22,083 nucleotides of DNA from a virus, in the IMG/VR virus record IMGVR_UViG_3300021185_001695, positions 1 through 22,083 of that record. The stretch is one strand, 5' to 3'. The notes beneath the pieces were generated by a model that saw nothing but the letters and a program-made list of their open reading frames with translations, searched no databases and was not told the origin of the DNA. This document shows positions 1-22,083 of the stretch, piece by piece (the first letter of the stretch is position 1; every line of letters starts with the position of its first letter). Made by a program: the position numbers and the translations under genes.

Positions 1-941
1 TCCATCTCTCTGAGTTTAGATCCTGCCCATCTAAGACCAGCTTTACCTCCCCAAAGTAGGTAGGAAATTGTGCCACATGCAGAAGAGTCACTTTCATCAT
101 AGTACTCATCTGCTCTGGAGAGATAGCTAAACATTCTTTTTATGGTTTCTACACTAACAGGCTTGCCCTGTGCGAGTTGAGTTGCTCTGACTTTGCCAAC
201 CTGGGTTGCACATTTGTTGCCATTTTTCTCATTTAGCTCTATGCCTCTTTTGGCATTGTTTTTCACTCCAGAAGGATAGTCTGAAAAAGACTCCATATTG
301 TACTTTTTCTTCTTCTTTTTCTTTTTGCCATAGCCTAGCATGTCTTTGACCTCTGACATCATGAACTCAGCCTCCTGGTTTTCCATTTCAGCAAGCTTCT
401 CATCAATTGTTTTGTCTTTAGGTCTCTGAGTTGCCTTTTCAGACATAAAAGCCTCTATTGAGAATCCTTTGACTTTCTTAGTTTTGATATAATTTTCCCA
501 GATGTCATCATCATTGACTTTCATAGAGACCATCCATGTCCCCTCTGGGAGGTCCATACCATAGTGAGCAGACTTGTCTTTGTCTTTATTCTCTATTATC
601 CAGGACTCAACAACTGTCATTCCCTCAAGCTTGTATTTATGCTCTAGAGTAGAGTTTGACTGATTGCCATTGACAAAAAACATTTCTGATGCTTTTCTGA
701 CTGTATCTTTGTTAAAAAAGATATAGTATTCCTCATCATCAGACTTTCTGTAGATTGGTCTGTTTGGCACTAAAGCTGCACCCATCAAGATTCTTTTTTC
801 TTGATCTATTTGTGCAAATTTTACCTCCTGGCTTTTCAAAGCAATCCATTCCTCTTCAATGGCAGGGTTTTCTACTAGACTCAGAGCTGACACTCCAATG
901 TCATCATTCTCTTCATCCAAGATTAGTTCTACTATTTTCAT
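1..941 (-). CDS. XkdF-like prohead (capsid maturation) serine protease, C-terminus cut by window edge
   Basis: About 313 residues are visible; the end runs off the left edge. The N-terminus (MKIVELILDEEN, then SALSLVENPAIEEEW) and the later segments LEHKY, GTWMVSMKVND and VKGFSIEAF match the pattern I know from XkdF-like phage serine proteases, which cleave scaffold or capsid precursors during head maturation. The His of LEHKY and the Ser of GFSIE are plausible catalytic residues. After about residue 210 comes an eight-lysine run, then a second segment (YPSGVKNNAKRGIELNEK ... RMFSYLSRADEYY ... CGTISYLLWGGKAGLRW) found behind several phage proteases and of unclear role. ATG start at 941, two bases after the tape measure stop, so co-transcribed with it. 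Family call is from memory; moderate to good confidence. Confidence 0.75.
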   Translation of the reverse strand, partial: MKIVELILDEENDDIGVSALSLVENPAIEEEWIALKSQEVKFAQIDQEKRILMGAALVPNRPIYRKSDDEEYYIFFNKDTVRKASEMFFVNGNQSNSTLEHKYKLEGMTVVESWIIENKDKDKSAHYGMDLPEGTWMVSMKVNDDDIWENYIKTKKVKGFSIEAFMSEKATQRPKDKTIDEKLAEMENQEAEFMMSEVKDMLGYGKKKKKKKKYNMESFSDYPSGVKNNAKRGIELNEKNGNKCATQVGKVRATQLAQGKPVSVETIKRMFSYLSRADEYYDESDSSACGTISYLLWGGKAGLRWAGSKLREM

Positions 942-943
942 AA

Positions 944-2719
944 TTATCCTATTTTAGCTGTTTCAATTATATTTCGATCTAAAGCCTGGGCTGATGACAC
1001 ATCTGATGAGGTCACAAAGGCTTTTATTGGTCTCTGGTTTTGTCCATTTAGTGCTTCAGCAATCTGATTCTGTGCTGATGATCCTACAATGTTGAATGAT
1101 GGAGTCCTGGAAGCAGGAGCAGAAACACCACCACCACCAGCAGATCCTGCTGCAGATTTTGCTCCAGAGATTGCTGATTTGATTGACATCATTATTCCTG
1201 CAGCCTGCAATCCATAAGCAATAAGCATCGGAATGTTTTGAGGAAATCCAACTTTTGCTGTTTGTGCTGTACCTTCTGCAACTGCTGCTGATGATCTTGC
1301 TGCAACTAAAGCTGAAAAAGTGAGTGTCTTTTTGGCTTCCTCTACTAATTCAATTGCATTCATCACTTGCTTTGCTACAAGAGCAGCCTTTCCAGCTTTT
1401 GTCTCAGCTCCAAAGAGTGCAATTGCCTGGTCTGCTGCTGAATGTTTAGCTGCTGAGATCATGTCTATTTGTCTCTGCTCTTCTGTTGCAATTCTAGTAT
1501 TTCTGTCCTCTTGTGCTTTGTCTGAAATTTCTTTGTCTTTTGCTGCCTGGTCCTCTCTGACTTTTTTATCTGCAGCAGCTTTGTCATCTCTAGCTTTGTT
1601 GTCTGCTGCTTCTTTGTCTGCAATTGCTTTGATTGCTGCAGCCTCTTCTGCTTTTAATGCAATGATCTGTCCTGTGACTTCTTTTGCCTTTGTGAGCTTT
1701 GCAGTTTCTAATTGAATGAGTGCAGCTTTTAGCTCCTCCTCTTCAATCATGTCCTCCTTTGTAGATTTGGACAATGTGTTCTCAAGAGTCTTTGCTTCTG
1801 ATCTAAGCCTGGCTGCTTCAATCTCCTGGTTTGTAATTTTCTCTTCCAGAGCTGCAGCCTCCTGGAGGAATCCGATTCTTTGCTGTGTTGTAAAATTCTC
1901 CTTGTCAATTGCCTGTTCTAAAAGTGCAGCTCTGTCCCTATCTGCTTTGGCTCTATCTACAATCAATGCTCTTTCAGCCTTGTCTGCTTTAGCTCTGAGG
2001 TCTGCAACCTTTTGTGCTGATTTTGCATCAGCAGCAATTTCTTTGCCTAGCTCTTTTGTTGCATCAATTGTTTTCTTTATGCCATCAACAAGAGCTTCTG
2101 TTGCAATGACTGCAGGGTTGATTGCTCTGTTTATTTCTAGAAATCCTGTTCCTGCATCATCTAAAGCTCCTTTGAAATCTCCATCAAAAAGCTTTTGAAA
2201 AGCAGATCCTAAAAGTCCAAGTCCTCCCAGGAGCTGATCTATTTTTTTGACTACAAAATCATTGATTGACTTGCTAAAGTTTTTGAATGATTCTATAGGA
2301 TTTGTGAATGTCTCAATAATTCCCATCCCTAGATCAGAGAGCTTGTCTGTGAGGTTGCCTAGAACAGAGCCTATCACACCCATAATCTTTGCAAACTTGT
2401 TCTGACCTTCTTCAGAATCCTGGAAAGCTTGAGCAACTGCTCCTATTGCAATTGCAATTGCACCTATTCCAGAAGTTAAAAGCACACCTTTAAGGGTTCT
2501 GAAACCTTTTGTGACATTTCTAAGTGTCCCTAAAAGTCCTTTAAACCCAGAAACAGCTCCTCCTGTGACAGTGTCAAGCTGGTTTCCCATTTCTGAGACA
2601 TCAGTTGATGCTTCTTTTGACTTTTGTGATGTTTCTTTTAAACTATCATTGACAGCATCAACATTTTTGACAGCTCCTTTACTGTCAACATTCAATTTCA
2701 TGTTTACTTCCTGGCTCAT
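944..2719 (-). CDS. Tail tape measure protein
   Basis: 591 residues. The tape measure sets tail length and is ejected during DNA delivery. The N-terminus (about 1-75) is polar and helical. A hydrophobic stretch around residues 79-99 (SGIGAIAIAIGAVAQAF) and a Gly/Leu-rich segment near 160-190 could insert in a membrane. Residues about 225-440 are a long Ala/Lys/Glu heptad-like coiled coil (repeated KAxADK-type blocks), followed by an Ala/Gly-rich C-terminal region with a GGGG linker. This layout is typical of tape measures; at about 1.5 A per residue it predicts a tail near 90 nm. The start overlaps the stop of the upstream 47-residue gene by ATGA. Long antisense frames opposite this gene are shadows of its repetitive composition. 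Confidence 0.85.
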   Translation of the reverse strand: MSQEVNMKLNVDSKGAVKNVDAVNDSLKETSQKSKEASTDVSEMGNQLDTVTGGAVSGFKGLLGTLRNVTKGFRTLKGVLLTSGIGAIAIAIGAVAQAFQDSEEGQNKFAKIMGVIGSVLGNLTDKLSDLGMGIIETFTNPIESFKNFSKSINDFVVKKIDQLLGGLGLLGSAFQKLFDGDFKGALDDAGTGFLEINRAINPAVIATEALVDGIKKTIDATKELGKEIAADAKSAQKVADLRAKADKAERALIVDRAKADRDRAALLEQAIDKENFTTQQRIGFLQEAAALEEKITNQEIEAARLRSEAKTLENTLSKSTKEDMIEEEELKAALIQLETAKLTKAKEVTGQIIALKAEEAAAIKAIADKEAADNKARDDKAAADKKVREDQAAKDKEISDKAQEDRNTRIATEEQRQIDMISAAKHSAADQAIALFGAETKAGKAALVAKQVMNAIELVEEAKKTLTFSALVAARSSAAVAEGTAQTAKVGFPQNIPMLIAYGLQAAGIMMSIKSAISGAKSAAGSAGGGGVSAPASRTPSFNIVGSSAQNQIAEALNGQNQRPIKAFVTSSDVSSAQALDRNIIETAKIG

Positions 2720-2859
2720 AGCTTGTACTTAATTAGTTTTAATCCTTCTTTGATAGACTCTGGCATCTTGTTTCTACCTAATGCAATCTTCTCCAGGTCT
2801 CCTAGACCCCTGTGATCATGTTTCAATATATCCAGCATATCAATAATGTTTTTAATCAT
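2716..2859 (-). CDS. Small tail-module protein of 47 residues, function unknown
   Basis: A short ORF starting MIKNIIDMLDILKHDHRG and ending LIKYKL. Its ATG overlaps the stop of the 1168-residue gene by ATGA (2856-2859), and its TGA overlaps the ATG of the tape measure by ATGA (2716-2719). This double stop-start coupling argues strongly that it is translated. It is charged, probably helical, with no Cys and no membrane segment. Lying directly before the tape measure it could be a small tail chaperone or tail-tip accessory, but nothing in the sequence fixes a function. Confidence 0.75.
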   Translation of the reverse strand: MIKNIIDMLDILKHDHRGLGDLEKIALGRNKMPESIKEGLKLIKYKL

Positions 2860-5800
2860 TCGCAGTAGTATGTGTCAATTACAATTCCTTTGCTTTTTTG
2901 TAGTGTTAAAAAGCCTCTGACTCTTTTATCTGAGTTTAATAATACAATCACATGGTAGTCATATTGTCTCCAATTTGTTATTGCTGCAGCATTGCTGGCA
3001 AAATTGTTTTGGCTGTTTTGAAATGTTGTTGTCACATCTTGACCCAGAACCTTTGTTGTTCTGATTTGATCTCCTAGCCCTGGATTGATGTCAATTCCAT
3101 CATGTGCAATTTCAAAATCTTCTATTTGATTTACTGCATAGTTTTCATCACATCTGCTGCTGAAACTATGTGCTGAAAGTGGCAGATAGAAAGATGTGTA
3201 TACAAAAGCTTTTGTCAATGGCTCTACAAGGTTGCAATCATAGACAGCAACAACTTCAGCAGATGAAAATTTGACAACTATATACTTGATCACTTTATAA
3301 TAGGCTTTTGAATCTTTTATGAAGTTGTCAAGGTTGTCACCTACAGCCAGAGCAAAATAGTCTGTGCTTCCATATATAGAGATGAAAGAATCTGTGCCTC
3401 CTCCATAATTTGGGACACCTCCTGGAGCTTTCCTAGAGATTAAATCACCCACTACAGGATAGAGACCAGAAGATCCATTGTGAAAATAGTTTGCATTTGA
3501 AACAGCATATTCACCACAAAAAGCACTGTGATAGACTGTGTAAGTGTTCGCCTCTATTTGTGCCTTTGTAGGGATTGAACTATATCCAGCAGAACCAATT
3601 CCAGCATGGATTCCAAAACCTGGAATTCTTGCAGTTGATGAGCTTGTTCCTGGAGCAGGGTTTGTGCTTATTGTGTGAATCCCTGTTATTGTGTTTTTAT
3701 CTGTATCATAGTCTGGACTGACATTTGTCTTTGCATAAAACCTAGCATGCTTTGTTGCTGGATGTGTCAATCCTGTGACTTTTGCCTCTTTGATTCTAGG
3801 TGAGGCAGTCATGTCTAGAGGAGATCCAGCTCCTAGAAAGACATTGTCTTTGTTGACCATAATGAGCTGAACTCCTGCTGCTGTTTTTAAGGTATCAATA
3901 TCATTAGTTGCTGAGAGTGTAGAAATTGAATCAGCAATTAAAAAACCATATTCATCGACATTTTCTTGCTCACATAGTTTCCCTCCTTCAGTGATCTCAA
4001 ATTTGAATGTTGCTTCTGTGTTAGATCCAAAAGATGTAATATAGGACAATGTAGGAGCTGTCACCTCACAGGGAGTCACATTGATAGAGCTAGGCACATT
4101 TTGAAGGATCGGTGCTGGTGTGCTATCAATCAGAGCTGGCTGTGTGAATCCATTGTTTTGACCTCCAGAGTTGTCTATTGTGAATTGACTATTGTCAACA
4201 GTGATGTCAATATTTGAGATATCTATTGGAACTCCAAAGATTGTAATTGGTGAGGTAAGCGTATCAACAACAGATGCAAACTTTGTAGATCTTAAAATGT
4301 TGACCAGCTCCAGCTCACTCTTTCCTGTATCAAAGTTTGTAGTGATGCTGTTTATTCTGTAAATCTTGTCAAAGATTCTGAGGTCATCATTTAGACTCAG
4401 CTCCTCAGTGATGCTCATAGGCAGCTCTGCAGTGAGTTTTGTGATTCTTTTTCTCTCATCAAATAAGTCTTTGATATAGCTCTCATAGTAAGTTTTAAAA
4501 AGTGTTTTTTCATTGCTCACTAGGGCATACTCATCAACTTCAGCATGGAAATTGATTGATTGTGACATGCCTTCCTCTACATAATCAGAGAAAACAGAAA
4601 CAGAATTTGATGGCATATAGGGTGAGTTGATCATGACCTTTGTGCCTCCTAGATTCCTCACACTTATAGAACTGATTGTCTGAATAGGATAGAACAGCAG
4701 AGGCATCTCTGCGCTCTTTTGCTCTTTTTCATCAACATGCCAACCCCATTGGACCTTTGTCAGATCTCCTGTGTTTAGATCATTAAGCCTTTCAAAGAGC
4801 ATGTGTTCAAAAGGCAGCTTGACCTCATAGGTCTCACCCTCAAACTTATCTTTTTTGCCATTAGTTAAAAAGTAGCTGTCCTCATTGTAGTTTGTTTGTC
4901 CCCAGGGTCTGTTGTTTATGCTGTTAAAATTAGAAGCCAGGAATGTTTTTGTCCCTTCATATCCTAGATTGACTTGTCTGTAGGGAATAGGTGAATCAAC
5001 CTGGCTCTTTGTAGAGTCAACATAGGGAGTGATGTCCCAGAGTTTTGTGGAGCTGGCATAGTAATCATCAAGAGTCTGGACCACAATGACATCATCATCA
5101 TTGATGTAGGCAATGAGATTGAACATTTTAAATAGTCCCTGGAGCAGATCAATGACTTTCATCTCTGGAAGGTTAATAGGTACACTAAAATGTGCATCTG
5201 TAATTGTTGTCATTGATGCAACAAGTTTGCAGTCTCTTTTGCCTCCTAGCAAAGCATTGTTTTGTCTTTGCACAAAGACCTCCAGGTCAAATGTAGTTGC
5301 AGCAGAGGTCTCTATGAAAACAGAAAACTGACCATTGTCAACTTCTATGAAATCATTTGTTTGACTCACAGCTGTTCCATTTTTTGTGTCACCTTTTAGG
5401 CTGTCAAATCTTCTGAACTCCTCTCCATTTTTATGGATCACTAGATTGTAGGTTGCTGTGTCATCTCCAGGATCAACTGTGAATTCCAGATTGTATTGGA
5501 TGTTCTTTTTTGTGTTGTTTATTGCAAAATTGTTGTGTCTGATTACTAGCTCATCTTGAGCTGTTCCAACAAGACCAAAACTTTTGAACTGTTTTGATTT
5601 TTGTTGATCCTCAAACAGACCTCCACTCTTTGTATGCAGCCAGAGATATAGATTATTGTAGGGGAGATTTGTGTTAGTAAAGAAATCATCTGAGAATTCC
5701 AGGTCATAGTGCAGCTCTATTGCTTTTATTATTGCATCTATTTTGATTGCTGGCTTTAGCTGTGAAAACAAAACTCCATTGTTGTCTATTCCTGCAGATG

Positions 5801-6362
5801 GATAGATGTTGTTGTTTTCGCTTGCAGAGGAGTCATAGATCAGCCTGTTTGTGTGAGTGATCAGTGGAAAAATCACAGCGTTCTCAATCTGGTCTGAGCC
5901 TATATTGTTATCTAAGCCATCAGTCATGTAGGCTGTGATGTTTGTGTCATTGTAGGGAAAATCAAAGGCACTCAATTCAGTCAGAGCTGAGATCTTGTCA
6001 TCTCCCAGGACATCAGTCAGTCTGATTGTGTCTCCAAAGAATGTGAGCTTGTAGCTTTCTGGTTTGTTGTTTTTAAGATTAACACCTTCAAATCTGACTT
6101 TCCCTTTTTTAAATGGCTTATAGTTTAAATGAAGATCAGCAACCTTTTTGATTTTAGCATTATATCCATCAATGAAATAGTTGTAAAAATGTTTGAAGAT
6201 CTTATTGTTGTTTTTGCTCGCTGGAACTGTGAAGCTCCTGGAGTAATCTGTCAAAACTGCATCAATCTTTTTTACATCTGTGATGTTTTGTGTCAAAGTG
6301 ATTGACTCATCTTTGAACATCTCAACTTCTTTTCCCTCAATATAGAGCTGTAGTTTTAGCAT
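2856..6362 (-). CDS. Large tail-tip / host-contact virion protein
   Basis: 1168 residues, the largest gene here. The N-terminus (LQLYIEGKEVEMF ... DVKKIDAVLTDYSRSFTVPAS ... NNKIFKHFYNYFIDGYN) resembles a conserved structural protein of flavobacterial siphophages. Residues to about 700 look like a beta-rich tail hub or baseplate-type body. Around 760-930 there is a Pro/Thr-rich linker followed by a fibronectin-like segment (containing TFKFEITEGGK and EYGFLIADS). The last 240 residues are Gly/Ser/Tyr-rich and have features of a receptor-binding tip. It lies between another structural gene (abutting, TAA then ATG) and the tape measure, a usual place for tail-tip proteins, although here it precedes rather than follows the tape measure. 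The exact tail role is inferred. Confidence 0.6.
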   Translation of the reverse strand: MLKLQLYIEGKEVEMFKDESITLTQNITDVKKIDAVLTDYSRSFTVPASKNNNKIFKHFYNYFIDGYNAKIKKVADLHLNYKPFKKGKVRFEGVNLKNNKPESYKLTFFGDTIRLTDVLGDDKISALTELSAFDFPYNDTNITAYMTDGLDNNIGSDQIENAVIFPLITHTNRLIYDSSASENNNIYPSAGIDNNGVLFSQLKPAIKIDAIIKAIELHYDLEFSDDFFTNTNLPYNNLYLWLHTKSGGLFEDQQKSKQFKSFGLVGTAQDELVIRHNNFAINNTKKNIQYNLEFTVDPGDDTATYNLVIHKNGEEFRRFDSLKGDTKNGTAVSQTNDFIEVDNGQFSVFIETSAATTFDLEVFVQRQNNALLGGKRDCKLVASMTTITDAHFSVPINLPEMKVIDLLQGLFKMFNLIAYINDDDVIVVQTLDDYYASSTKLWDITPYVDSTKSQVDSPIPYRQVNLGYEGTKTFLASNFNSINNRPWGQTNYNEDSYFLTNGKKDKFEGETYEVKLPFEHMLFERLNDLNTGDLTKVQWGWHVDEKEQKSAEMPLLFYPIQTISSISVRNLGGTKVMINSPYMPSNSVSVFSDYVEEGMSQSINFHAEVDEYALVSNEKTLFKTYYESYIKDLFDERKRITKLTAELPMSITEELSLNDDLRIFDKIYRINSITTNFDTGKSELELVNILRSTKFASVVDTLTSPITIFGVPIDISNIDITVDNSQFTIDNSGGQNNGFTQPALIDSTPAPILQNVPSSINVTPCEVTAPTLSYITSFGSNTEATFKFEITEGGKLCEQENVDEYGFLIADSISTLSATNDIDTLKTAAGVQLIMVNKDNVFLGAGSPLDMTASPRIKEAKVTGLTHPATKHARFYAKTNVSPDYDTDKNTITGIHTISTNPAPGTSSSTARIPGFGIHAGIGSAGYSSIPTKAQIEANTYTVYHSAFCGEYAVSNANYFHNGSSGLYPVVGDLISRKAPGGVPNYGGGTDSFISIYGSTDYFALAVGDNLDNFIKDSKAYYKVIKYIVVKFSSAEVVAVYDCNLVEPLTKAFVYTSFYLPLSAHSFSSRCDENYAVNQIEDFEIAHDGIDINPGLGDQIRTTKVLGQDVTTTFQNSQNNFASNAAAITNWRQYDYHVIVLLNSDKRVRGFLTLQKSKGIVIDTYYCE

Positions 6363-7349
6363 TTATCTGATGTTGTTTATTTTGTCAAAAGCAAATTCAA
6401 ACTCAAGAGTGTAGTTGATCATCTTGTCATTTAGATGTGTTTTGTGAGTCATGCTTTTTGTGAGTGGTAAAATTGGAAGAGTCTTTCCTTGATGTCTGAT
6501 GTAAATGTTCTCACTTAAAAGCAGCTCCTCAATTGTTGAGTTCATGTTTTCTTTAATAAAGCCTGTATTGACTGTCAGCTTTTTTGTTGCATTCACATTT
6601 GTGATCTGCTTTTGTGCTGCTGAAGTGCTATAGTTTAAACTTGATCTACTTACTGTGTTTGCTTTGTAGCTCTCAGAGACCACATCAAAGCTTTCTATTG
6701 ACTTCTTAAACACATGAAGGTCCTGGAATGCTCCATATTGATTAACAAAGCTCAATTTGTAGCTTGTAAACTTTGGCTCACAGATGTTTGTCACTGTGAT
6801 TGTTTTCAGAAGTGTAGTGTCATCAGTGTCATAGACTTTTATCTGACTAGAGTCAGCAGGAATTGTCACATACTGAATCTTTTGATTACTGTTTCCAGAA
6901 TCTGTGATCTGTGTGTCTGTGCTGTCAATCCTTACTTTGCCAACTCCCTCTGAAAAGATTGGAAGCTTTCCTGGTGTCCCCTCTGGGAGATAGATGTTGT
7001 CAGAAGTGATCAGTGCGTTCCTGGAAAGCTCTGGATTGATTTCATCCTCAAAATAGCCATATCCATCAACTGCTAGATAGTTGAAGATTCCTGGATTGCT
7101 ATGATCTAGTAAATCTCCCTGGAGGTCTTTGTAGTAAACAACAGCAGAAACCCATTTTGCATGACATTGATAGTCATCATTGAATGTGATTTCAAGGTGA
7201 TCTCTGACAAGCTCTCCTATCTCCAGGACAATGTTGTTTTCAGTTCCTAGTCTTTCTTTGTTGATTGTGTACTTCAAGTCTGCTGCTGAATATGAGCCAA
7301 CAGTTCCAGAGTAGATGTAGAGTTGCAATTGAATTGATCCTAATGCCAT
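6363..7349 (-). CDS. Phage structural protein, probable tail component
   Basis: 328 residues, start MALGSIQLQLYIYSG, beta-rich with no signal peptide or membrane helix. The segment FVNQYGAFQDLHVFKKS around residues 205-221 is a motif I associate with a conserved structural protein of Bacteroidota phages. The first half contains ELVRDHLEI and an acidic loop. Its stop abuts the ATG of the 1168-residue tail protein, and the gap from the preceding gene is only 11 bases with an A/T-rich leader (AAAAATATAAAAA before ATG) in place of a Shine-Dalgarno. It is probably a tail-tip or distal-tail component, but a minor tail or adaptor role is equally possible. Confidence 0.5.
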   Translation of the reverse strand: MALGSIQLQLYIYSGTVGSYSAADLKYTINKERLGTENNIVLEIGELVRDHLEITFNDDYQCHAKWVSAVVYYKDLQGDLLDHSNPGIFNYLAVDGYGYFEDEINPELSRNALITSDNIYLPEGTPGKLPIFSEGVGKVRIDSTDTQITDSGNSNQKIQYVTIPADSSQIKVYDTDDTTLLKTITVTNICEPKFTSYKLSFVNQYGAFQDLHVFKKSIESFDVVSESYKANTVSRSSLNYSTSAAQKQITNVNATKKLTVNTGFIKENMNSTIEELLLSENIYIRHQGKTLPILPLTKSMTHKTHLNDKMINYTLEFEFAFDKINNIR

Positions 7350-7360
7350 TTTTTATATTT

Positions 7361-8884
7361 TTAAAGTTGACCTCCTTTTCCTTTTCCTGCTCCAGATCCA
7401 TAGTCAACACCATCTGGAGGACAGTCCCAAACTGCAACATCTCTGACAATTCCTTCATCATCAATCTGCCACATCCTAAAGTTTCCTGTGTTTGTGCCTA
7501 TAGAAGTTTTGTTTGTGCTTACTGCATAGTAAAAATTGCCTCCTAACATTGGAGCATTGTTTAGACAAACTTGTTTTCCTAGAGCATTCGTGATTGATGT
7601 TGCAGGAGTGGTGACTGATTTAGAGACATTCCATGTTCCTGGACAGTAGCCATCAATTTCTGTCATTGCTGTTGCTAGATAGAAAGTGTTTGATCCACAT
7701 TGATTTGCTTTTGCTGGCTGGTTTATGTTTACAGGACAGGATATTGTTCCAGAGTTGCTGTACCCTCCAGGAACTGTCACAGTAAATGTCACTGTCCTGG
7801 CAGTGTCACTTGATACTTCTGGAAACTTTCCATTGCTGAAACCAGTGTTTGTTGATGTGTGTGCTGTGATAGATCCTAGAGCTGCTGATCCATAGTCTAC
7901 AATCCCAGACTGTGAAATTCTTTGCCCAGATAGATTTGCAGTTGAGCATGTGAACTCTGGATTTGCTGCTTGCTGCTCAAAGTCTTTTGAACATTTCACA
8001 GTTGATCCTGCATTTGTATATCCTCCTGGAACTGTTAAATCAAAAAACAGAGTCACTGTTCTGTTTGATCCTGTAGTGTTTGCAGAATAGCTTGAAATTG
8101 TTGAGCCATTAGCTGTCTCTCTGATAGATCCTACAGCAGCAACTGAGTTTGGCTTTGTAATGACTCCAGCTTGAGTGATTCCTCCTCCAGAGAAAGCTGC
8201 ATCTCCACATGCAAAAGCAACTCCTCCTGGAACACTAACAGTCACAGCAATTGATTGTGATGCTGTACAAGTTCCAGACTGTCCATCAGTTGCAGAAACA
8301 ATCACATTTGTTGATCCTCCTATGTTGTTTGAAAATATTGTGAGCGTGCTTCCAGAGACAGAGGCATTCACTAGAGTTTGATTTGCAACATAAACACTGT
8401 AGTTTGAAATAGCATTTGATCCTGCTGTAAAGTAGCTGCTCAGATTCACTGTGTCTGAGTCTCCTCCAGAGTCAATTGACACTGCTGGAATTGATCCATT
8501 TGTTGTTGGTCCTCCAGAACATGTCACAGGAGGATCTGATGGAGTTGGCTGTGTTACAATCAGAGCTGGCTGCTCAATTGTTCTTTCACAATCAATGTAG
8601 GCATCTGCTGTGTTTGAATAGCCTCCAGGAATAGAAATTCTAATAGTTAAATCTCTGTCAGTTGCTGTTGATACTGTAGAGAATTTGTCATTGCTGAAAT
8701 CTGAGTCAGATGATGTGATTGACAAAATAGTTCCTAGAGCAGTTGTGGCTTGACTGATTTGCCCTTGTTGATCTATTGATAAATTTTGAATCTCTGCAAC
8801 ATCACAATTGAATAGTGGAGTAGGTGCTACAGGCTCAGTCAAGTTCAAATAGAATGGACTTCTAACATTAATTTTTGTACTCAT
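7361..8884 (-). CDS. Cys-rich virion protein with three repeats and an Ig/cadherin-like domain, probable adhesin
   Basis: 507 residues. Three related blocks of about 80 residues lie at roughly 25-107, 224-307 and 311-391; each starts with F-x-C, contains a Q-x-G-x-I/alanine-GSI segment and ends in (I/V)PGGY(S/T)N ... C ... Q(P/Q)A. Between blocks 1 and 2 (about 125-218) is a cadherin/dystroglycan-like Ig fold (DTVNLSSYFTAGSN ... NIGGSTNVIVSATDGQSG). The C-terminal 110 residues contain further Cys and end in a Gly/Lys tail (GSGAGKGKGGQL). The N-terminus MSTKINVRSPFYLNL is typical of a Bacteroidota phage structural protein. Likely role: decoration or host-surface adhesion. Block 2 is the most diverged. 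Start overlaps nothing upstream; its ATG overlaps the TGA of the next upstream gene (ATGA). Confidence 0.55.
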   Translation of the reverse strand: MSTKINVRSPFYLNLTEPVAPTPLFNCDVAEIQNLSIDQQGQISQATTALGTILSITSSDSDFSNDKFSTVSTATDRDLTIRISIPGGYSNTADAYIDCERTIEQPALIVTQPTPSDPPVTCSGGPTTNGSIPAVSIDSGGDSDTVNLSSYFTAGSNAISNYSVYVANQTLVNASVSGSTLTIFSNNIGGSTNVIVSATDGQSGTCTASQSIAVTVSVPGGVAFACGDAAFSGGGITQAGVITKPNSVAAVGSIRETANGSTISSYSANTTGSNRTVTLFFDLTVPGGYTNAGSTVKCSKDFEQQAANPEFTCSTANLSGQRISQSGIVDYGSAALGSITAHTSTNTGFSNGKFPEVSSDTARTVTFTVTVPGGYSNSGTISCPVNINQPAKANQCGSNTFYLATAMTEIDGYCPGTWNVSKSVTTPATSITNALGKQVCLNNAPMLGGNFYYAVSTNKTSIGTNTGNFRMWQIDDEGIVRDVAVWDCPPDGVDYGSGAGKGKGGQL

Positions 8885-9447
8885 TTTTCTGCTGTTGTTT
8901 TTAGTCTCTGCTCAATATCCAGAGCAAAGCTTTGTTTGATGTCTTTAGGGAGCTGCTTAAATGCTATTGTAAAAGGAGTTGTAAAAAACAGACTAGGCTT
9001 GATCCCAGATAAGTAGATGCTTCTAGTAATCAGAAACACCAGGCTCTTTCTTTTTGCAAATCTTCCTTGATCATCTCTTGTTCCTGGAATGCCTTTTCTG
9101 ACTACCCAGGAGTCAATTGCATCTCTGAGCCTTCCATTGCCTTTGTACTTACCAGATCCAAACTTGTAGGGACTTCTAGGAGCTTGTTGCTTTCCTCTTC
9201 TCTTTGCTCCTTTAGGAAGCTTTCCAGGATTTGCTCCCTGGACTCCAAGATCTACAAAGTTGGCATAATCCTCTGCATAAAATTCAAGCTCTATGATGCC
9301 CTTTGTTGTGTCAATCTTTGGCTCACTATAATCCAGAGATTTAGCAAGCTTAGAATCGCTCTTGAGCTTTCTTCTAGATTTAGAGACAACTGTCTTTCCA
9401 AATCTATTGAGTGCTTTCTTTAGTGATTTGAGATCTGTTGCTTCCAT
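8881..9447 (-). CDS. HK97 gp10-like head-tail connection protein
   Basis: 188 residues. The N-terminal half is a basic helical segment; then comes ELEFYAEDYANFVDLGVQG (about 53-71), the tyrosine/valine 'FVDLGV.G' signature of the HK97-gp10-like neck or tail-completion family, followed by a basic Gly/Lys/Pro loop, WVVRKGIPG and a C-terminal ITRSIYLSGIKPSLFFTTPF that also fits the family. These proteins sit at the head-tail interface. The next gene upstream is tail-terminator-like, matching the usual pairing of gp10-like and terminator genes. It overlaps its upstream neighbour by one base (TAATG) and its downstream neighbour by ATGA. Confidence 0.65.
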   Translation of the reverse strand: MEATDLKSLKKALNRFGKTVVSKSRRKLKSDSKLAKSLDYSEPKIDTTKGIIELEFYAEDYANFVDLGVQGANPGKLPKGAKRRGKQQAPRSPYKFGSGKYKGNGRLRDAIDSWVVRKGIPGTRDDQGRFAKRKSLVFLITRSIYLSGIKPSLFFTTPFTIAFKQLPKDIKQSFALDIEQRLKTTAEK

Positions 9448-10909: not shown

Positions 10910-10951
10910 TTATTATAAAACGTTTGTGTTTGTGTTTATCGGTCTAGGATT

Positions 10952-12897: not shown

Positions 12898-13297
12898 ATT
12901 TTGGTTTCTCTTCTTTTTCTTCTGTTTCTTTTGGCATTGGAAGATCTAGACCCCAATCATTGAGATCATCAACCTCCCACTCATTTGCCAGCATGTCAAA
13001 GTCCCAATCTCCTGCATTTGTATTGTCTTTTATGACAAACTCCTTCTGCTTTGCTTCACTCCATCCTTCTGCAACATCAATCCAAATTTCTGACATGCCA
13101 GCATCTTGAGCAGCTCTTAGTCTCATATTGCCTCCCAGGACCAGGAGATCTTCATTTACAACGACAGGGCGTTTCTCTAGCATCTCTGGAAAGCCTTCAA
13201 TTGATTTCACCAGGGAAAAGAACTTCTCATCCTTTATTACTCTAGGATTGTCTGGATGCTTTCTGAGCTTATAGATTTTTTCTAGTCTTTTACTCAT
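12878..13297 (-). CDS. ParB-like N-terminal domain (nuclease) protein
   Basis: 139 residues from ATG 13297 (a longer TTG start at 13306 is possible but the ATG makes an ATGAGTAA overlap with the upstream stop). It shows the ParB/Srx-fold core: LRKHPDNPRVIKD, then VVVNEDLLVLGGNMRLRAAQ (GGNxRLxAA is the hallmark) and AGMSEIWIDVAEGWSEAKQ, EFVIKDNTNAGDWDFDMLA and LNDWGLDLP. Phage ParB-like proteins of this type often act as DNA-binding or nuclease/methylase partners; no methyltransferase is adjacent here. The C-terminus CDCCGK has three Cys and may bind metal. Its place before the terminase genes suggests a role at packaging or late DNA processing. Confidence 0.8.
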   Translation of the reverse strand: MSKRLEKIYKLRKHPDNPRVIKDEKFFSLVKSIEGFPEMLEKRPVVVNEDLLVLGGNMRLRAAQDAGMSEIWIDVAEGWSEAKQKEFVIKDNTNAGDWDFDMLANEWEVDDLNDWGLDLPMPKETEEKEEKPKCDCCGK

Positions 13298-13649
13298 ATC
13301 TTTCAAACTCTGCTCTTAATGACTCAACAATGTTATTAAGACATGCGCTGCAGCCTGTTGGCTTTTCATTTGTCCTGTTTACTTTATTGTAGATTGAATA
13401 GATCATATCTCTTTCCTCATTTGATTTGAGTCTTTTGCCATTGTAAGTCTCAAAAAACATCTGCAGGAACTCAAACTCTGTCTGTGTCAGATTCCCTTTC
13501 TTTGGAAACCATCGATTGAGAGTGGACTTCCTTTTTTGACAGCCACAGTCTTTTTTAACTGCTTTTGCTACAGTGTCAACAACCTTTTTAATTCCCAGGG
13601 GTTTGGTCACAAATTTTTCAATGTCATCTCCTAATCCTTTACTCTTCAT
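13290..13649 (-). CDS. Conserved Cys-containing phage protein, 119 residues, function unknown
   Basis: N-terminus MKSKGLGDDIEKFVTKPLGIKKVV..., then DCGCQKRKSTLNRWFP, a helical middle (TQTEFEFLQMFFETYNGKR) and a second Cys pair CSAC near residue 100. The GLGDxIxKxTxxxGIKKVV ... CGCxxRxxxLN pattern is recurrent in flavobacterial phages, in my recollection, next to the terminase region. The two CxC/CxxC pairs could together bind one zinc. It overlaps the sigma-like gene upstream by 11 bases and the ParB-like gene downstream by 8. A small terminase-like or DNA-adaptor role is possible but unproven. Confidence 0.6.
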   Translation of the reverse strand: MKSKGLGDDIEKFVTKPLGIKKVVDTVAKAVKKDCGCQKRKSTLNRWFPKKGNLTQTEFEFLQMFFETYNGKRLKSNEERDMIYSIYNKVNRTNEKPTGCSACLNNIVESLRAEFERYE

Positions 13650-14217
13650 AATATTGATCTTTTAGTTTGTCATTTATCTTCACTTTGCATCTTTTCACAG
13701 TCCTGTAAATTGTAGAGACTGACAGCTTTGTGTCTTTGCTCATGTTTGAGGTGTGATTTTTAAATTCATATCTGTAGAGATTAAAAACTTTTTTGTCAAA
13801 CCAATAAAAGCTATTGACATATTCATTGATAAGTTTGTCAATGTCTTTTTCACTCTCCAGGATCACTTCTGGCTGCTCCTCAAAGTTCTGACTAGCATGT
13901 CTTTTCATGTAGCCTATGTTGTCATCCAGAGAGATATATTTCTTTTCTTTTCTGATCATGTCGATGTACATATTTTTGACTGTCTTGTATAACTTAAACG
14001 TACCAGAATCTGAGATTCGGTCTAGAAATCTGTTGATCATTGCAGGATTGTTTTCAGCCTTTTCTATTTCAGCATACATTTTTAGGAAGAGATCTTGAGT
14101 GATGTCCTCATGATACTGCCCTTTGAGCTTGAAGTATTTCACATCAACGTCATAGACAAAATCTTTGATCCTGTCATATCGTTTTGCAATGTATTCTAGA
14201 GCTTCTTTTTTTGTCAT
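13639..14217 (-). CDS. Sigma-70-family-like transcription factor
   Basis: 192 residues. EDITQDLFLKMYAEI (about 37-51) matches the core-binding region 2 pattern (xDLxQExFLKxY). Residues 75-95 include TFKLYKTVKNMYIDMIRKEKK, similar to a region 2.4-like helix. The C-terminal part (FDKKVFNLYRYEFKNHTSNMSKDTKLSVSTIYRTVKRCKVKI) has a region 4 HTH pattern: a short helix, then a helix with STIYRTVKR as recognition helix. Located directly before packaging and virion genes, it could direct late transcription. Divergent from housekeeping sigma; ECF-like. An HTH regulator without RNA polymerase contact is the alternative. ATGA overlap with ninG upstream. Confidence 0.65.
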   Translation of the reverse strand: MTKKEALEYIAKRYDRIKDFVYDVDVKYFKLKGQYHEDITQDLFLKMYAEIEKAENNPAMINRFLDRISDSGTFKLYKTVKNMYIDMIRKEKKYISLDDNIGYMKRHASQNFEEQPEVILESEKDIDKLINEYVNSFYWFDKKVFNLYRYEFKNHTSNMSKDTKLSVSTIYRTVKRCKVKINDKLKDQYYEE

Positions 14218-14606
14218 TTGTTTAAAGCTTTGTATTTCTCAATGATATCAACCAGCTCAAATCTGTCCCATTTGTAGCTTTGCTTTTTTGAGAGTTCAAC
14301 TGTCTGCTCTAGATCATAGACTCTATCCATTCCTATTTTGTCAATTAGATTGATTCTGTAGTTGAGCAAATTCGCACTCATGTAGTAATTGCATTTAAGA
14401 CATTGACCATGCACATTGTCCTCATTGAATCTGAGCTGTGGATGTTTGCCTGCTGAATAGAAGTGACCAGCCTGGAGAGTTGTTTTTTTGGAACAGGAGA
14501 TGCAAGGCTTTCCCTGGTCTCTGTTTCTGATGTAGAGATGAAAGTGTCTGACAGCTATCTTGATGAGCTGTGCAACTGTCTTATTTCTGTAGATGTTTTT
14601 AGCCAT
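14214..14606 (-). CDS. ninG: NinG/Rap-like recombination nuclease
   Basis: 130 residues. Cys35 and Cys38 (GKPCISC), AGHFYSAGKHPQLRF with His48, and EDNVHGQCLKCNYYMSANL with Asn64, His66, Cys69 and Cys72 reproduce the NinG/Rap pattern (a treble-clef HNH-type structure). Lambda NinG/Rap promotes RecBCD-pathway recombination by acting on branched DNA. It is the first gene after the terminator at 14703-14727, so it heads the second leftward unit together with the sigma-like factor and terminase genes, probably from a promoter in the 14607-14700 stretch. Confidence 0.85.
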   Translation of the reverse strand: MAKNIYRNKTVAQLIKIAVRHFHLYIRNRDQGKPCISCSKKTTLQAGHFYSAGKHPQLRFNEDNVHGQCLKCNYYMSANLLNYRINLIDKIGMDRVYDLEQTVELSKKQSYKWDRFELVDIIEKYKALNK

Positions 14607-17945: not shown

Positions 17946-18080
17946 TTAGTTTTGGTGATTAAATTCTGCTTCTTTGAGACAGTATCTGCAGAGAGGTGTG
18001 TTTTGGTGCAGCTCGTATGCTCTACCACCACAGCTCCTGCAAATCTCATCTCTGTTAATGTAGTATCTCTGATCTATCAT
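17946..18080 (-). CDS. Small zinc-ribbon protein, 44 residues
   Basis: Contains ICRSCGG near residues 13-19 and LCRYCLK near residues 32-38, two CxxC knuckles 15 residues apart, the spacing of a single zinc ribbon or treble clef. The start ATG overlaps the preceding stop by ATGA (18077-18080). Small zinc-ribbon proteins are common in phage early operons and may bind DNA or other proteins; the exact role is unknown. Confidence 0.7.
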   Translation of the reverse strand: MIDQRYYINRDEICRSCGGRAYELHQNTPLCRYCLKEAEFNHQN

Positions 18081-18475
18081 GACTGCTCCTCATCTTCATG
18101 CCACATATCATCCTTTGAAAAGACTCCCTCATTTGCAAAGCCTGTCAGATTTAGAATTGCTCTTCCTCTTCCTCTTTTCTCAGCCATACAGGCTAGATAA
18201 GACACTCTGCAGTTTTGTTTGCTGGCTTCTCCTATGGTCTGATAGATAGGATTCTCTCCCCACTTTGCTTTGACTTTTAGAGCAACATGCTCTCCAGGAA
18301 CACACAAAGCTTCTATAGGTTCAAAATCAACCTCCATCTTTTCAATTGCCTGGATCTTGTCAATGCCACTCTTTAGCATAAAAGGAACTTTTTTGTCTCC
18401 ATAACTTTGTATGTGAAAGTCTGATCCTACAAGTCCATAAATCTCACTGAGTTCTCTTAGTCTTTCTGATTTCAT
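18077..18475 (-). CDS. Candidate DNA-annealing/recombination-associated early protein
   Basis: 132 residues from ATG 18475, which forms an ATGA overlap with the upstream gene (an in-frame ATG at 18502 is less likely). A 'KKVPFMLKSGIDKIQ' segment, a beta-rich middle and the strongly patterned IGEASKQNCRVSYLACMAEKRGRGRAILNLTGFANEG near residues 87-123 resemble a phage family with 'GEAsxxNc ... MAExRAxxRAL' motifs found with recombination and SSB genes. The Rad52/Erf-like motif of Ala/Arg helices is suggestive, not conclusive. The C-terminus is acidic (DDMWHEDEEQS). Confidence 0.5.
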   Translation of the reverse strand: MKSERLRELSEIYGLVGSDFHIQSYGDKKVPFMLKSGIDKIQAIEKMEVDFEPIEALCVPGEHVALKVKAKWGENPIYQTIGEASKQNCRVSYLACMAEKRGRGRAILNLTGFANEGVFSKDDMWHEDEEQS

Positions 18476-18741
18476 AGTGCAAATTGTTTTTGCTCTTCCC
18501 ATAGTGACTCAATGTGAGCTTTAAGTTCTGAGACTGTTGATTTGATGTTTCTAGCTACTGTGCTGAAAGTTTCTGTGTTGAATCCTCTCTCTGTGTTTGG
18601 AGGAATGACAAGCTTGCCCTTTTCATCAAAGTTGAAAAAAGGACTGACTGTCCAGGATTGACTGTTTGCTTTTACTGTTGTAAAAATTGTCACTGACTGA
18701 TCATCTGTGTCAAATGACAAACTGAATTTTGAGTGTAACAT
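18472..18741 (-). CDS. Early phage protein of unknown function, 89 residues
   Basis: Beta-rich N-terminal half (SKFSLSFDTDDQSVTIFTTV, then a Phe/Pro segment SWTVSPFFNFDEKGKLVIPP) and a helical C-terminal half (FSTVARNIKSTVSELKAHIESLWEE). No family recognised. It starts 3 bases after the excisionase-like gene and its stop overlaps the annealing-protein candidate by ATGA, so it belongs to the coupled early operon. Confidence 0.6.
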   Translation of the reverse strand: MLHSKFSLSFDTDDQSVTIFTTVKANSQSWTVSPFFNFDEKGKLVIPPNTERGFNTETFSTVARNIKSTVSELKAHIESLWEEQKQFAL

Positions 18742-18743
18742 AT

Positions 18744-19025
18744 TTATTTGTTTAAGTATTCATCAGCAGCCTGTTGAGTGACAAGCCTTCTTTTTCCTCT
18801 GTGTACTACCTTGAGCCTTCCTCTTTCAATATCATTCTCAATTGTCTTTCTAGAGAGTCCTGCAATTTCTGTGACCTCTTTTATGTTGAGAAAGTTTGTA
18901 GGCTTTACCTCTGGACCATGTGCAATGATCTGATTGAGTCTGGTGATCTCAGTAATACATCCATCAAGCTTTGCCTCTAATGCTTCAAGCTGTATCTGGT
19001 TTTCTATTTCCTGTTGCTTATTCAT
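18744..19025 (-). CDS. Excisionase/MerR-type HTH DNA-binding protein
   Basis: 93 residues. An N-terminal coiled coil (QQEIENQIQLEALEAKL ... ITRLNQII) is followed by FLNIKEVTEIAGLSRKTIENDIERGRLKVVHRGKRRLV, a winged HTH of the HTH_17/excisionase type: helix EVTEIAGL, recognition helix SRKTIENDIERG and a basic wing. A final helix follows (TQQAADEYLNK). Such proteins act as recombination directionality factors or as early regulators. It lies second in the early operon, near the integrase and att site, fitting an Xis role; a pure transcription regulator is the alternative. Confidence 0.75.
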   Translation of the reverse strand: MNKQQEIENQIQLEALEAKLDGCITEITRLNQIIAHGPEVKPTNFLNIKEVTEIAGLSRKTIENDIERGRLKVVHRGKRRLVTQQAADEYLNK

Positions 19026-19028
19026 ATT

Positions 19029-19334
19029 CTATTTGATTATTTCTGCTAATTGATTTTTTATGACAGAGTGTTGAGCTGGTGTGTATTTCAAGTCAACTCC
19101 ATTTTCATCTAAAAGAGAAATACACAGAAAAAGAAGTTCTGTTGTACAATGGATCTGATTGTGCTGTTCCATGCTACCAGAGAGAACAAGAGTCATCCCA
19201 TTGTTTAGCAAGATTTTTTGCCATTTATACTCAATTCTTACTGTGTCTTTGTCAATGAGAGTTTCTGTGTTTATCCTCATTTTGTTAATTTCTTTTAAAG
19301 CTTTTAACGCTTCCTGGTGTTGTTTTTTTGTCAT
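19029..19334 (-). CDS. First gene of the leftward early operon, unknown function
   Basis: 101 residues, helical N-terminus (MTKKQHQEALKALKEINKM), then a beta-rich middle with WQKILLNNGMTLVLSGSME and a helical end (AQHSVIKNQLAEII). No recognised family. As the promoter-proximal early gene, opposite the repressor, it may be an anti-repressor or early regulator, but this is only position-based. Confidence 0.5.
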   Translation of the reverse strand: MTKKQHQEALKALKEINKMRINTETLIDKDTVRIEYKWQKILLNNGMTLVLSGSMEQHNQIHCTTELLFLCISLLDENGVDLKYTPAQHSVIKNQLAEIIK

Positions 19335-19489: not shown

Positions 19490-20365
19490 ATGGAGAAAAA
19501 ATCACCTCAAGCAGAAAGATTGCAGAGATTTGTTGATCTTACAGGCTATTCAATCAATGAATTTGCGAAACAGTGTGGAATCCCTAGCACTAGAACTTTG
19601 ACAAGGATTCTCACAGATGGAGGCAGACCCAGCTCAAAGATTTTAGACAAAATAATCACCAGGTTTCCACAGCTCAATCATGATTGGGTTGTTCTAGGTT
19701 ATGGAGAAATGATTGTCAAGGGATTTGACAACAAGCCTGTTTCAGCAGACAGCCTTCAGAAATCAACCCAGGCTAGTTTTGGAACAATACAGCAGAGCAT
19801 GTCTGATCATGACTTTTCACTCAATGAGCTTGCAAAGGCAGTTGAAAAGGCAATCACTAGAGTTGACACTATGTCTCAGTTTCTAATCCAGGCAGCAGAG
19901 TCATCAGTAGAAAAACAGGCACTGATTGAAAAGCTTTTTTTTGAAAAAGTTGACAATAAGATTCTAGAGGTTGATAAACATGTTGCCCAGCTTTTTCATG
20001 TATTAAGAGAGAGAGATCAAGAGGCTAGAGAATCGGAGGACAAAAGAATTGATAGACTTGACCAACAAAGAAGAGAGCAAAGGCAAAAAGACATGAAAAT
20101 TTTGTTTGATCAATTTGACAGACTTTCAACAAAAACAAAAGAACATCTGGACCTAAATGCAGAAAGACAAAAAACACTCATCCAGGAAAAGATAGATGAA
20201 GGGATCAGAAGAGGCATTGATCAGATGAACATAGAAATGAAGAAAAATGCAGTTGAACAAACAGACTTTGCTATTAAGTCATTGATGGAAAAGTTTAGAT
20301 TGTCTAATTTGTTGCCAGGATTAGGATCACCAAAAAAAACATCTAATCCCAAGCTGAAAGAATAG
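19490..20365 (+). CDS. Phage repressor-like protein: HTH plus long coiled coil
   Basis: 291 residues, the only plus-strand gene in the window. Residues about 17-60 (TGYSINEFAKQCGIPSTRTLTRILTDGGRPSSKILDKIITRFP) form an XRE-type helix-turn-helix, followed by LNHDWVVLGYGEMIV, the usual continuation in flavobacterial phage CI-like proteins. The remainder (about 100-265) is a charged coiled coil (QALIEKLFFEKVDNKILEVDKH..., RIDRLDQQRREQRQKDMK...). No LexA/S24 peptidase domain is present, so self-cleavage is not expected. Likely lysogeny repressor of the divergent early operon. Its stop overlaps the integrase gene end by 23 bases, in convergent orientation. Confidence 0.75.
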   Translation: MEKKSPQAERLQRFVDLTGYSINEFAKQCGIPSTRTLTRILTDGGRPSSKILDKIITRFPQLNHDWVVLGYGEMIVKGFDNKPVSADSLQKSTQASFGTIQQSMSDHDFSLNELAKAVEKAITRVDTMSQFLIQAAESSVEKQALIEKLFFEKVDNKILEVDKHVAQLFHVLRERDQEARESEDKRIDRLDQQRREQRQKDMKILFDQFDRLSTKTKEHLDLNAERQKTLIQEKIDEGIRRGIDQMNIEMKKNAVEQTDFAIKSLMEKFRLSNLLPGLGSPKKTSNPKLKE

Positions 20366-21530
20366 CCTCAGACAGCCTGGCTTTGTCAACTCTGATGTAG
20401 TTTTCAAGCGTTTTAAGAGACTTAATTCCTGTGACCTTCATGATCAATGAGTGACTCACTCCTTTTTGCTCTGAGAGTGTAATGAATGTCCTCCTGGCTG
20501 TGTGACTTGCAATCAGTTTGAACCTAGGGATCTCTTCTGTGTCTTTCCTGTTTCCATAAAATCTGTCCCTGGTGACTACTTCTGTGAATCCTGCAAGCTC
20601 ACATATCTGATGAATGTGATCATTGAACTTTTGTCCAGAGATTGTCTTGAGTTTCCAATCATATTTATCTAGCAAAGCTCTCAGTTTCCTAGTCAATGGA
20701 ATGTAGGAAAACTGTCCTGTCTTTTTTGCTCTGATTTCAATGTTGTTGCCCACAATGAACTTCCTGTCAAAACGCTTGTAATCTGAAAACCTTTGTCCAG
20801 AGTAGCAACCTATCAGAAAAAGATCTCTGTAGTAATCTTTGACAGGATCTAGATCTAGGGTCTCCAGGATCTCTAGATCAGAAAGAGAAAGTGAGATGTG
20901 TGATGTTTCCCTTTTTTTAATTTTAACATCTTTAAAAGCTGAGTTGACAGCATATCCATTTTTGACGCACCAATTTAAAAAAGACTTTAAAAAACCAAGC
21001 TTTCTTCTCAGTGTATTGTCAGAGATGTTTTTCTCCTTCCTAAAGTATGCAATCAGATCATTGAAAAAAGCACTGTCAAAATCAGACAAATAGAAAACTT
21101 TCTTTTTCTTTTTCTGGATCTGCAAGATGGCTGTGTGTAACCTGGTATATTTTTGCCAGGAATCCTTTTTCACAGATTCGCTGTCTTTCTTTTGCTGGAT
21201 GTAGATCTGGAAGTAGTCAGAATAGTTGAGCCTTTTAGTGACTTGAGCAAGCTGAAAATGCTCATCAAGTTTTTTTCTTACAACGTCTCTAGTTAAACTC
21301 TCTTTATAATACCTTTTTAGATCATCAAAGACTTTCTGGTATTCATTCAGCTCATGTGTGATTTTTCTGTTTGCTTCTCCTATCTCACCTCTCCTGGCTT
21401 TTGGTCTTTGTGTTTTTAGATCCCACTCTGATCTGTCAATTTTTATCTTTGTTGAATACCTACACTTTTTTCCATAGAGATAAAAAATAAAAAAAATGTA
21501 GTTTTGAGGTCCATGTAGTAAAAAACTCAT
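20343..21530 (-). CDS. int: Tyrosine site-specific integrase
   Basis: 395 residues from ATG 21530; a TTG 27 bases upstream lies in a 12-bp repeat and is a poor start. N-terminal arm-binding-like part (KIDRSEWDLKTQRPKARRG), a SAM-like core-binding domain (NYSDYFQIYI ... LRRKLGFLKSFLNWCVKNGYAVNSAF) and catalytic domain. In TTG-based numbering the catalytic residues are Arg256 (SGQRFSD), Lys279, His352 and Arg355 (SHTARRTFI) and Tyr387 (ENYIR). The usual second His (GHKS) is replaced by TGIKS. Mediates integration at the tRNA-derived att core directly upstream. It may be autoregulated, as two arm-type repeats cover its immediate 5' side. Confidence 0.93.
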   Translation of the reverse strand: MSFLLHGPQNYIFFIFYLYGKKCRYSTKIKIDRSEWDLKTQRPKARRGEIGEANRKITHELNEYQKVFDDLKRYYKESLTRDVVRKKLDEHFQLAQVTKRLNYSDYFQIYIQQKKDSESVKKDSWQKYTRLHTAILQIQKKKKKVFYLSDFDSAFFNDLIAYFRKEKNISDNTLRRKLGFLKSFLNWCVKNGYAVNSAFKDVKIKKRETSHISLSLSDLEILETLDLDPVKDYYRDLFLIGCYSGQRFSDYKRFDRKFIVGNNIEIRAKKTGQFSYIPLTRKLRALLDKYDWKLKTISGQKFNDHIHQICELAGFTEVVTRDRFYGNRKDTEEIPRFKLIASHTARRTFITLSEQKGVSHSLIMKVTGIKSLKTLENYIRVDKARLSEAILSAWD

Positions 21531-21554
21531 TTGGTGTCCGTTTTGGTGTCCGTT
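21531..21554 (+). repeat. Tandem pair of 12-bp repeats, left arm of att
   Basis: Two exact adjacent copies of TTGGTGTCCGTT. A second, similar pair occurs on the other side of the att core in the same orientation. They are likely arm-type sites for the integrase N-terminal domain and directly precede the integrase start codon. Confidence 0.75.
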
Positions 21555-21568
21555 CAAAACTACAAAAT

Positions 21569-21648: not shown

Positions 21649-21671
21649 GGTTCGAGTCCCTCTTTCTCCGC
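21649..21671 (+). other. Attachment-site core derived from a tRNA-Ser 3' end
   Basis: GGTTCGAGTCCCTCTTTCTCCGC-type segment (T-loop plus 3' acceptor strand of a tRNA whose acceptor 3' strand is TTTCTCC followed by discriminator G; tRNA-Ser of Bacteroidota ends this way). The 5' side of the T stem (GTAGG) pairs poorly with CCCTC, so only the 3' tRNA portion is present and no functional tRNA gene is formed. It lies between the two pairs of arm repeats. Identity of the tRNA is inferred. Confidence 0.75.
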
Positions 21672-21683
21672 TTAATACCTTGT

Positions 21684-21715
21684 AAACCCCTGCAAATAGT
21701 AGGGGTTTCTTTTTT
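21684..21715 (+). terminator. Rho-independent terminator after the tRNA-like core
   Basis: Stem AAACCCCT (21684-21691) with AGGGGTTT (21701-21708), 9-base loop, then CTTTTTTT on the plus strand. It has the orientation of the tRNA fragment, as expected for a tRNA terminator carried along with the att sequence, or restored to the host tRNA after integration. Confidence 0.8.
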
Positions 21716-21738
21716 TGGTGTCCGTTTTAGTGTCCCTT
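21715..21738 (+). repeat. Tandem pair of 12-bp repeats, right arm of att
   Basis: First copy TTGGTGTCCGTT is identical to both left-arm copies; the second, TTAGTGTCCCTT, has two differences. Their presence right of the core, about 43 bp away, points to an attP-type arm-core-arm structure. Confidence 0.75.
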
Positions 21739-21761
21739 TAGCCAAAAGTTAACCTCTAGAT

Positions 21762-22083
21762 CTAGAGCTTCATCATGCAGTTGATGGCAGTTTCTCCTTC
21801 CAGAATCACACCACATCCAATGGCTTGCTTTTTGAAGTTTTTTGCATAGGCTGCAGCATAGGCTGTTGCATCTAAACCACACCCCACTTGCATGCCAAAG
21901 ACTCTGAAGTTTCTGCCTACTAGCCACTCAGTATAGGCTTGAGTGTGAATGTGTCCCTGGACTGTACTCATCATGTCATTTTTTGCTTTTGTGCGAGCTG
22001 TGCCTCCTTCACCATGAGTAAATTGTACACCATCATAAACAACTCTTTCAACCCAATTCCAATTAGTTCCCAGGACATCATTG
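21762..22083 (-). CDS. Phage-type metallophosphoesterase, C-terminal part
   Basis: 106 residues visible, N-terminus beyond the right edge. It contains FTHGEGG, then VQGHIHTQA (the GHxH metal-binding signature of calcineurin-like phosphoesterases) and FGMQVGCGLDATAYAAAYAK followed by AIGCGVILEGE, a C-terminal pattern I know from phage-encoded metallophosphatases. Such enzymes are thought to act on DNA or nucleotides during infection. Its stop (TAG, 21762-21764) lies 24 bases from the right arm repeats, so phage genes flank att on both sides. The first GNHD-type motif is not visible. Confidence 0.75.
   Translation of the reverse strand, partial: NDVLGTNWNWVERVVYDGVQFTHGEGGTARTKAKNDMMSTVQGHIHTQAYTEWLVGRNFRVFGMQVGCGLDATAYAAAYAKNFKKQAIGCGVILEGETAINCMMKL

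Follow-up and report, generated by a model that had tools for sequence, protein, structure and literature searches.

Introduction

Extreme CpG depletion in prokaryotes is normally attributed to methylation followed by deamination. Mollicutes with CpG methyltransferases (M.SssI, M.MpeI), for example, are CpG-depleted, and this is usually ascribed to the same pair of processes. Phages, in turn, avoid restriction sites, mainly orthodox Type II sites and more so in non-temperate phages (BMC Genomics 2018, PMC6286503). In vertebrate RNA viruses, CpG suppression has been linked to ZAP (PMC8844275). Bacteria also attack DNA methylated at CG by modification-dependent restriction, with Mrr, the MspJI family and PsuGI as examples (reviewed in PMC12707154). 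Our literature search on CpG avoidance in phages found nothing directly on topic.

Here, we analyzed a stretch of 22,083 nucleotides of viral DNA (IMG/VR record IMGVR_UViG_3300021185_001695), hereafter the window, which covers most of the genome of a siphophage, a temperate phage of Bacteroidota. This marine phage and its close relatives lack more than 90% of the expected CG dinucleotides. The window shares low CpG in a prokaryotic setting with the Mollicutes but differs from them in its suppressed CpG gains and in an effect that is as strong on transversions as on transitions; moreover, the window proteins scanned included no C5 methylase. As in restriction-site avoidance, short words have been purged from a double-stranded DNA phage by selection (GGCC, GAGCTC and GGATCC are all absent); unlike the cases described (PMC6286503), a dinucleotide has been lost in every context, at about 740 sites, and from a temperate phage. 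Depletion at the dinucleotide level across codon phases resembles ZAP-linked suppression, but the window belongs to a bacterial double-stranded DNA phage. Restriction of mCG is a known bacterial route against DNA modified at CG (PMC12707154), but it needs prior CpG methylation, and neither a methylase nor a nuclease was found here.

Results

Gene content of the window

The features to which we refer are as follows.

1-22083, whole window: CpG-depleted, 66 CpG, rho 0.08; part of the genome of a temperate Bacteroidota siphophage
944-2719, minus strand: tape-measure-like protein gene, CpG observed/expected 0.04; phrog_32985 (unknown function), role suggested by position and composition
2856-9902, minus strand: tail/structural genes, structural role suggested by position
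10952-12217, minus strand: terminase large subunit (Terminase_3), the key gene for finding relatives; closest cultured match Nonlabens phage P12024L, 51%
12878-13306, minus strand: ParB-N-like protein without a methylase domain (ParB-N is a partner domain of phage DNA methylases)
13639-14606, minus strand: sigma-like and NinG genes, immediately adjacent; a C5 DNA methylase gene separates them in relative L002 (record G002)
19490-20365, plus strand: repressor-like regulator, weak HTH, phrog_8
20343-21557, minus strand: Bacteroidota-type tyrosine integrase, with 90% identity to that of sister clade B (CpG 0.37)
21649-21671, plus strand: tRNA-derived attP core, the 3' end of a tRNA-Ser-like sequence (probable tRNA identity)

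The window also has primosomal and DnaA-like genes. We inferred the functions of several tail genes from their position. The relative G002 (30 kb) extends the genome and adds a portal gene.

Extent of CpG depletion

We found 66 CpGs in the window, compared with 813 expected from base composition; a preliminary description, made by eye, had put these figures at about 65-80 and about 800. The strand-symmetric ratio (rho) is 0.08, under the limit of about 0.4 that this description had set for the depletion it reported, and the depletion is thus confirmed as real and extreme. Stretches of more than 1 kb lack CpG altogether, as had been claimed (4713-5818 and 8346-9356), and the longest CpG-free gap runs from 18015 to 19307. 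The loss extends, again as described, to codon boundaries, where 27 C|G steps remain versus 371 +/- 14 under permutation of synonymous codons, and to non-coding DNA, where 10 CpGs remain of 88 expected (0.11). Arginine is written with 252 AGR and 11 CGN codons, which bears out the reported near-exclusive use of AGA/AGG. The observed/expected ratio is 0.081 at codon positions 1-2, 0.079 at positions 2-3 and 0.072 at positions 3-1. Because the depletion is equal across codon phases and is found in non-coding DNA too, we rejected codon usage as its cause. GATC (161 sites) and CTAG (96 sites) are not similarly lost, in agreement with the preliminary description. The excess of TpG/CpA that it proposed to look for does exist (1.39), but ApG/CpT is also raised (1.28) and TpA is low (0.52), and the TG/CA excess is therefore non-specific.

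The residual CpGs are unevenly distributed. The late region (944-12503) has a ratio of 0.058 versus 0.110 in the early region (p 0.03), and its CpGs are mostly private to the window, the corresponding positions in relatives carrying TG or CA, which is what transient mutations of mildly harmful effect should leave. Many CpGs between 13 and 20 kb are instead conserved, often within GCGTT/AACGC words; between 5800 and 20800 such conserved CpGs include those at 5879, 7016, 13170, 16438, 16448, 20409 and 20773. The least depleted context in the clade is ACGC (0.24). Two sites had been thought to keep their CpGs, and each did so in part: within the tRNA-derived core, 5 of 5 relatives retain the CpG at 21669 but have CA in place of that at 21653, and for the 12-bp integrase repeats just 2-3 of 5-6 relatives retain the CpGs.

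Spread of low CpG among relatives

Relatives were IMG/VR loci found through the terminase large subunit (TerL) of the window. Loci with 93-97% TerL identity (clade A) have CpG ratios of 0.06-0.12. The sister clade B (L008-L010), with TerL 91% and integrase 90% identical, has ratios of 0.35-0.39 (about 0.37). The two clades were recovered from shared metagenomes (3300006026 and 3300008012 among them), and their tRNA-derived cores are similar. Beyond these clades, CpG in relatives ranges from 0.02 to 1.5; the cultured relatives are all distant, and those measured have 0.66-0.92. Extremes have arisen separately in L030 (0.02), L060/L061 (0.06) and G003/L043 (0.08, over part of the length), and further separately arisen low-CpG cases are L237/238, L256/274 and L298/321. 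Altogether, at least 7 of 104 sequence clusters, mutually unrelated, have a CpG median of 0.15 or less, and none of the 104 has a median between 0.15 and 0.25, a gap that is suggestive only.

Some contigs are mosaic in CpG along their length: in L036 the ratio jumps sharply from about 0.1 to 0.7 at about 3.3-4 kb, in the G003 contig (L087) it falls from about 0.35 to 0.05 at about 11 kb, and the C5 methylase gene of G002 stands out from its CpG-poor background. The sharp steps suggest that CpG-poor phages have exchanged modules with CpG-normal ones, although each of these mosaics may be an assembly chimera.

Gains and losses of CpG between close relatives

Mutation and selection differ in their time course: with deamination, CpG gains are normal and look rare only after saturation, whereas with selection they are rare at once. 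We counted C/T differences before G at synonymous sites, observed versus expected, in pairs of low-CpG genomes grouped by 4-fold divergence. We found 5 gains versus 38 expected at 0.5% divergence (ratio 0.13), 8 versus 98 at 3.9% (0.08), 124 versus 683 at 7.8% (0.18), and a ratio of 0.13 at 14%, the counts at low divergence being small and the pairs having common ancestry. High-CpG relatives gave ratios of 0.83-1.16. Suppression of gains is flat across divergence, and near-identical genomes already show it at about 4- to 8-fold. Disjoint pairs likewise showed 64 gains of 246 expected, and 30 of 84 when transversions were counted alone. Among differences lying over 100 bp from their nearest neighbor, 12 gains were observed versus 38 expected, which makes imported recombinant patches unlikely as the main cause. 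Intermediate lineages (CpG 0.2-0.6) showed no suppression of gains at short divergence, indicating that they are in a different state from the low-CpG lineages.

Directional counts in clade tips gave the same picture. TG>CG changes occurred at 5.8e-3 versus 17-34e-3 for other contexts, AG>CG at 1.5e-3 versus 2.5-13e-3, and GG>CG at 0 of 1999 versus about 10e-3. Losses of CpG in the tips include transversions, and the rate of change per CpG is raised 4-6 fold relative to other C, for transitions and transversions alike; deamination would need a 20-40 fold excess confined to transitions. Polarization of ancestral CpGs by a strict outgroup was rejected as an approach, with only 11 sites left. At 4-fold sites, C makes up 0.6% before G versus about 20% elsewhere. 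The missing C is not matched by the predicted products: relative to CpG-normal relatives, T/A at synonymous sites before G showed no rise, against +0.6 in ln(T/A) predicted under deamination, and NCA/NCT showed none either.

Simulations separated the two processes. Simulated deamination (rho 0.07-0.23) gave gain ratios of 0.9-1.3 at 1% divergence, whereas simulated selection with S=2.6 gave a rho of 0.095 and gain ratios of 0.14-0.22 at all divergences (0.15 at 1%). We estimate the scaled selection per CpG (2Ns) at about 2.6-3.2; the predicted equilibrium, about 0.04-0.08 of expectation, matches that observed. Together, these results provide good support for the conclusion that CpG rarity is maintained by a process that behaves like purifying selection against the dinucleotide as such. 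CpG-biased repair or conversion would give the same pattern.

The avoided word

Depletion extends to every one of the ten NCGN contexts, at 0.01-0.24 in clade A and likewise in seven other low-CpG lineages. In clade A, neither TCGA nor ACGT falls under ACGA, and across the eight lineages palindromic contexts are not clearly more depleted than non-palindromic ones. From the depletion of all ten contexts, we conclude that the avoided unit is CpG itself; a single Type II site as sole cause was rejected on these counts.

Other words are also missing. The window has no GGCC (about 18 sites expected) and no CCTGA/TCAGG (49 expected), a single ACTGG/CCAGT (35 expected), and no GAGCTC, GGATCC, ATGCAT or GAAGAC. 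CCWGG is over-represented in the window (105 versus 47) and absent from clade B; L012-L020 lack CCAGC and CTGCAG. For CpG as for GGCC, CCTGA and ACTGG, counts thus lie far under the expectation from shorter words, and recent gains of CpG are selected against. In L060/L061 (L089, L090; GC 28%), CTAG is completely absent (0 versus 153, counted on both strands), and GTAC, GATC, AGCT and CATG are low besides CpG.

Search for the host

Searches with TerL in 395 and 301 genomes returned relatives of just 41-45% at best, and the genomes carrying them have ordinary CpG near the match where this was measured. No match to the exact tRNA-core pattern was found in the 395 genomes, and an integrase scan of genome contigs gave a best match of only 25%. 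As a proxy for host CpG, we counted AAACGAAA against its reverse, AAAGCAAA, in 385 Bacteroidota genomes. The lowest ratio was about 0.14 in these genomes and about 0.13 in the lowest family; in clade A the AACGAA/AAGCAA ratio is 0.03. Samples of the genomes lowest by the AAACGAAA ratio have CpG of 0.47-0.93.

Discussion

Our results indicate that new CpGs are removed from these phages as they arise. We consider it probable that this reflects purifying selection against CpG itself, exerted through a CpG-recognizing host antiviral activity. The removal of new CpGs does not depend on the mutation from which they originate, existing ones are lost faster by transversions and transitions alike, and every flanking context and codon phase is affected, as is non-coding DNA. 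The probable agent, a host activity that recognizes CpG in the DNA of the phage, could be a nuclease or a modification-dependent system, which methylates and then cleaves. Some hosts would have this activity and others would lack it, and the phage lineages meeting it would purge CpG. The clade-specific loss of other words shows that sequences can be purged from these phages by pressure at the word level, of which restriction is the simplest form, and such strong purging makes a CpG-recognizing defense the most economical agent. Recurrence of the low-CpG trait in unrelated clusters also favors selection. Against it, a methylase gene containing 24 CpGs is tolerated by G002, and temperate phages usually eliminate fewer restriction sites than virulent ones (PMC6286503). 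We know of no restriction enzyme that requires only unmodified CG. We found no CpG-specific defense, and the host was not identified among the sampled genomes. The preliminary description had named as a candidate a host factor directed at CG, whether restriction or some other; its selective form is supported, while a single Type II site is excluded and the factor was not found.

The same description had also proposed methylation with deamination, and a host with the same bias. Methylation of CpG by a host or phage enzyme, followed by deamination to TpG/CpA, would be a mutational cause, and the raised TpG/CpA, the C5 methylase of G002 and the frequency of C5 methylases among related marine phages speak for it. 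This methylase gene (21352-22428 in G002; L084 1495-2592), situated between the NinG and sigma-like genes, is itself CpG-rich (observed/expected 0.62, 24 CpGs, in a background of 0.08) and is therefore probably recent; G003 and G004 lack one, so that it was rejected as a common cause, and contigs carrying its relatives have CpG anywhere from 0.03 to 1.62. Moreover, gains are suppressed at 0.5% synonymous divergence, where the model gives a ratio near 1, transversions are affected about as strongly as transitions, the expected synonymous T and A are not enriched, and L043 reaches a CpG of 0.08 with CA at just 1.03. As the main force removing CpG, deamination was rejected by the gain test, directional counts, simulations and base products, and we regard it as very improbable. 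That the phage simply follows a CpG-poor host chromosome also seems improbable, if slightly less so. A few Bacteroidota are moderately low (0.47-0.66 in samples of G210 and G156), but 69 chromosome samples lie at 0.65-1.48, nothing near the phage bias appeared in the 385 genomes or in the lowest family, and clades A and B differ (0.08 versus 0.37) despite 90% identical integrases and shared metagenomes.

Two further explanations retain selection but change its agent. The depletion could be the sum of many ordinary Type II systems with CG-containing sites (CCGG, GCGC, ACGT, TCGA and others). In line with this, CCGG is zero or nearly so in most clades examined, L038/L058 excepted, GCGC is low in many, and other words are lost clade by clade; however, non-palindromic ACGA, GCGA and ACGG are about as depleted as palindromic contexts in eight lineages with differing other avoided words, and we consider this sum unlikely. 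Rather less likely still is selection on RNA, in which a host RNase or RNA sensor would recognize CpG in transcripts, ZAP-like in function; to our knowledge, no bacterial factor of this kind has been described. The selection signature is compatible with it, UpA is low too (0.52), and in the window depletion is somewhat stronger in late than in early genes. In G002, however, the head region (0.124) shows no extra depletion relative to the early region (0.122), non-coding DNA is also depleted, and neither L043 nor L061 has low TpA.

Returning to selection against CpG through a host activity, we put forward, as a tentative and rather speculative extension, that some marine Bacteroidota possess an as yet undescribed antiviral system that senses bare CpG in phage nucleic acid, comparable in bacteria to the sensing of CpG by animals, and that several unrelated phage lineages have shed more than 85-95% of their CpGs in response. 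Known Type II restriction does not explain the loss of a two-base word in all contexts. The near-identical genomes available here allow deamination to be tested, and the data favor selection against this word in every context. With sister clades at 0.08 and 0.37 in the same samples, and with nearly the same integrase, the question is directly testable. Should CpG be read by a host factor, these phages would be a signpost to finding it.
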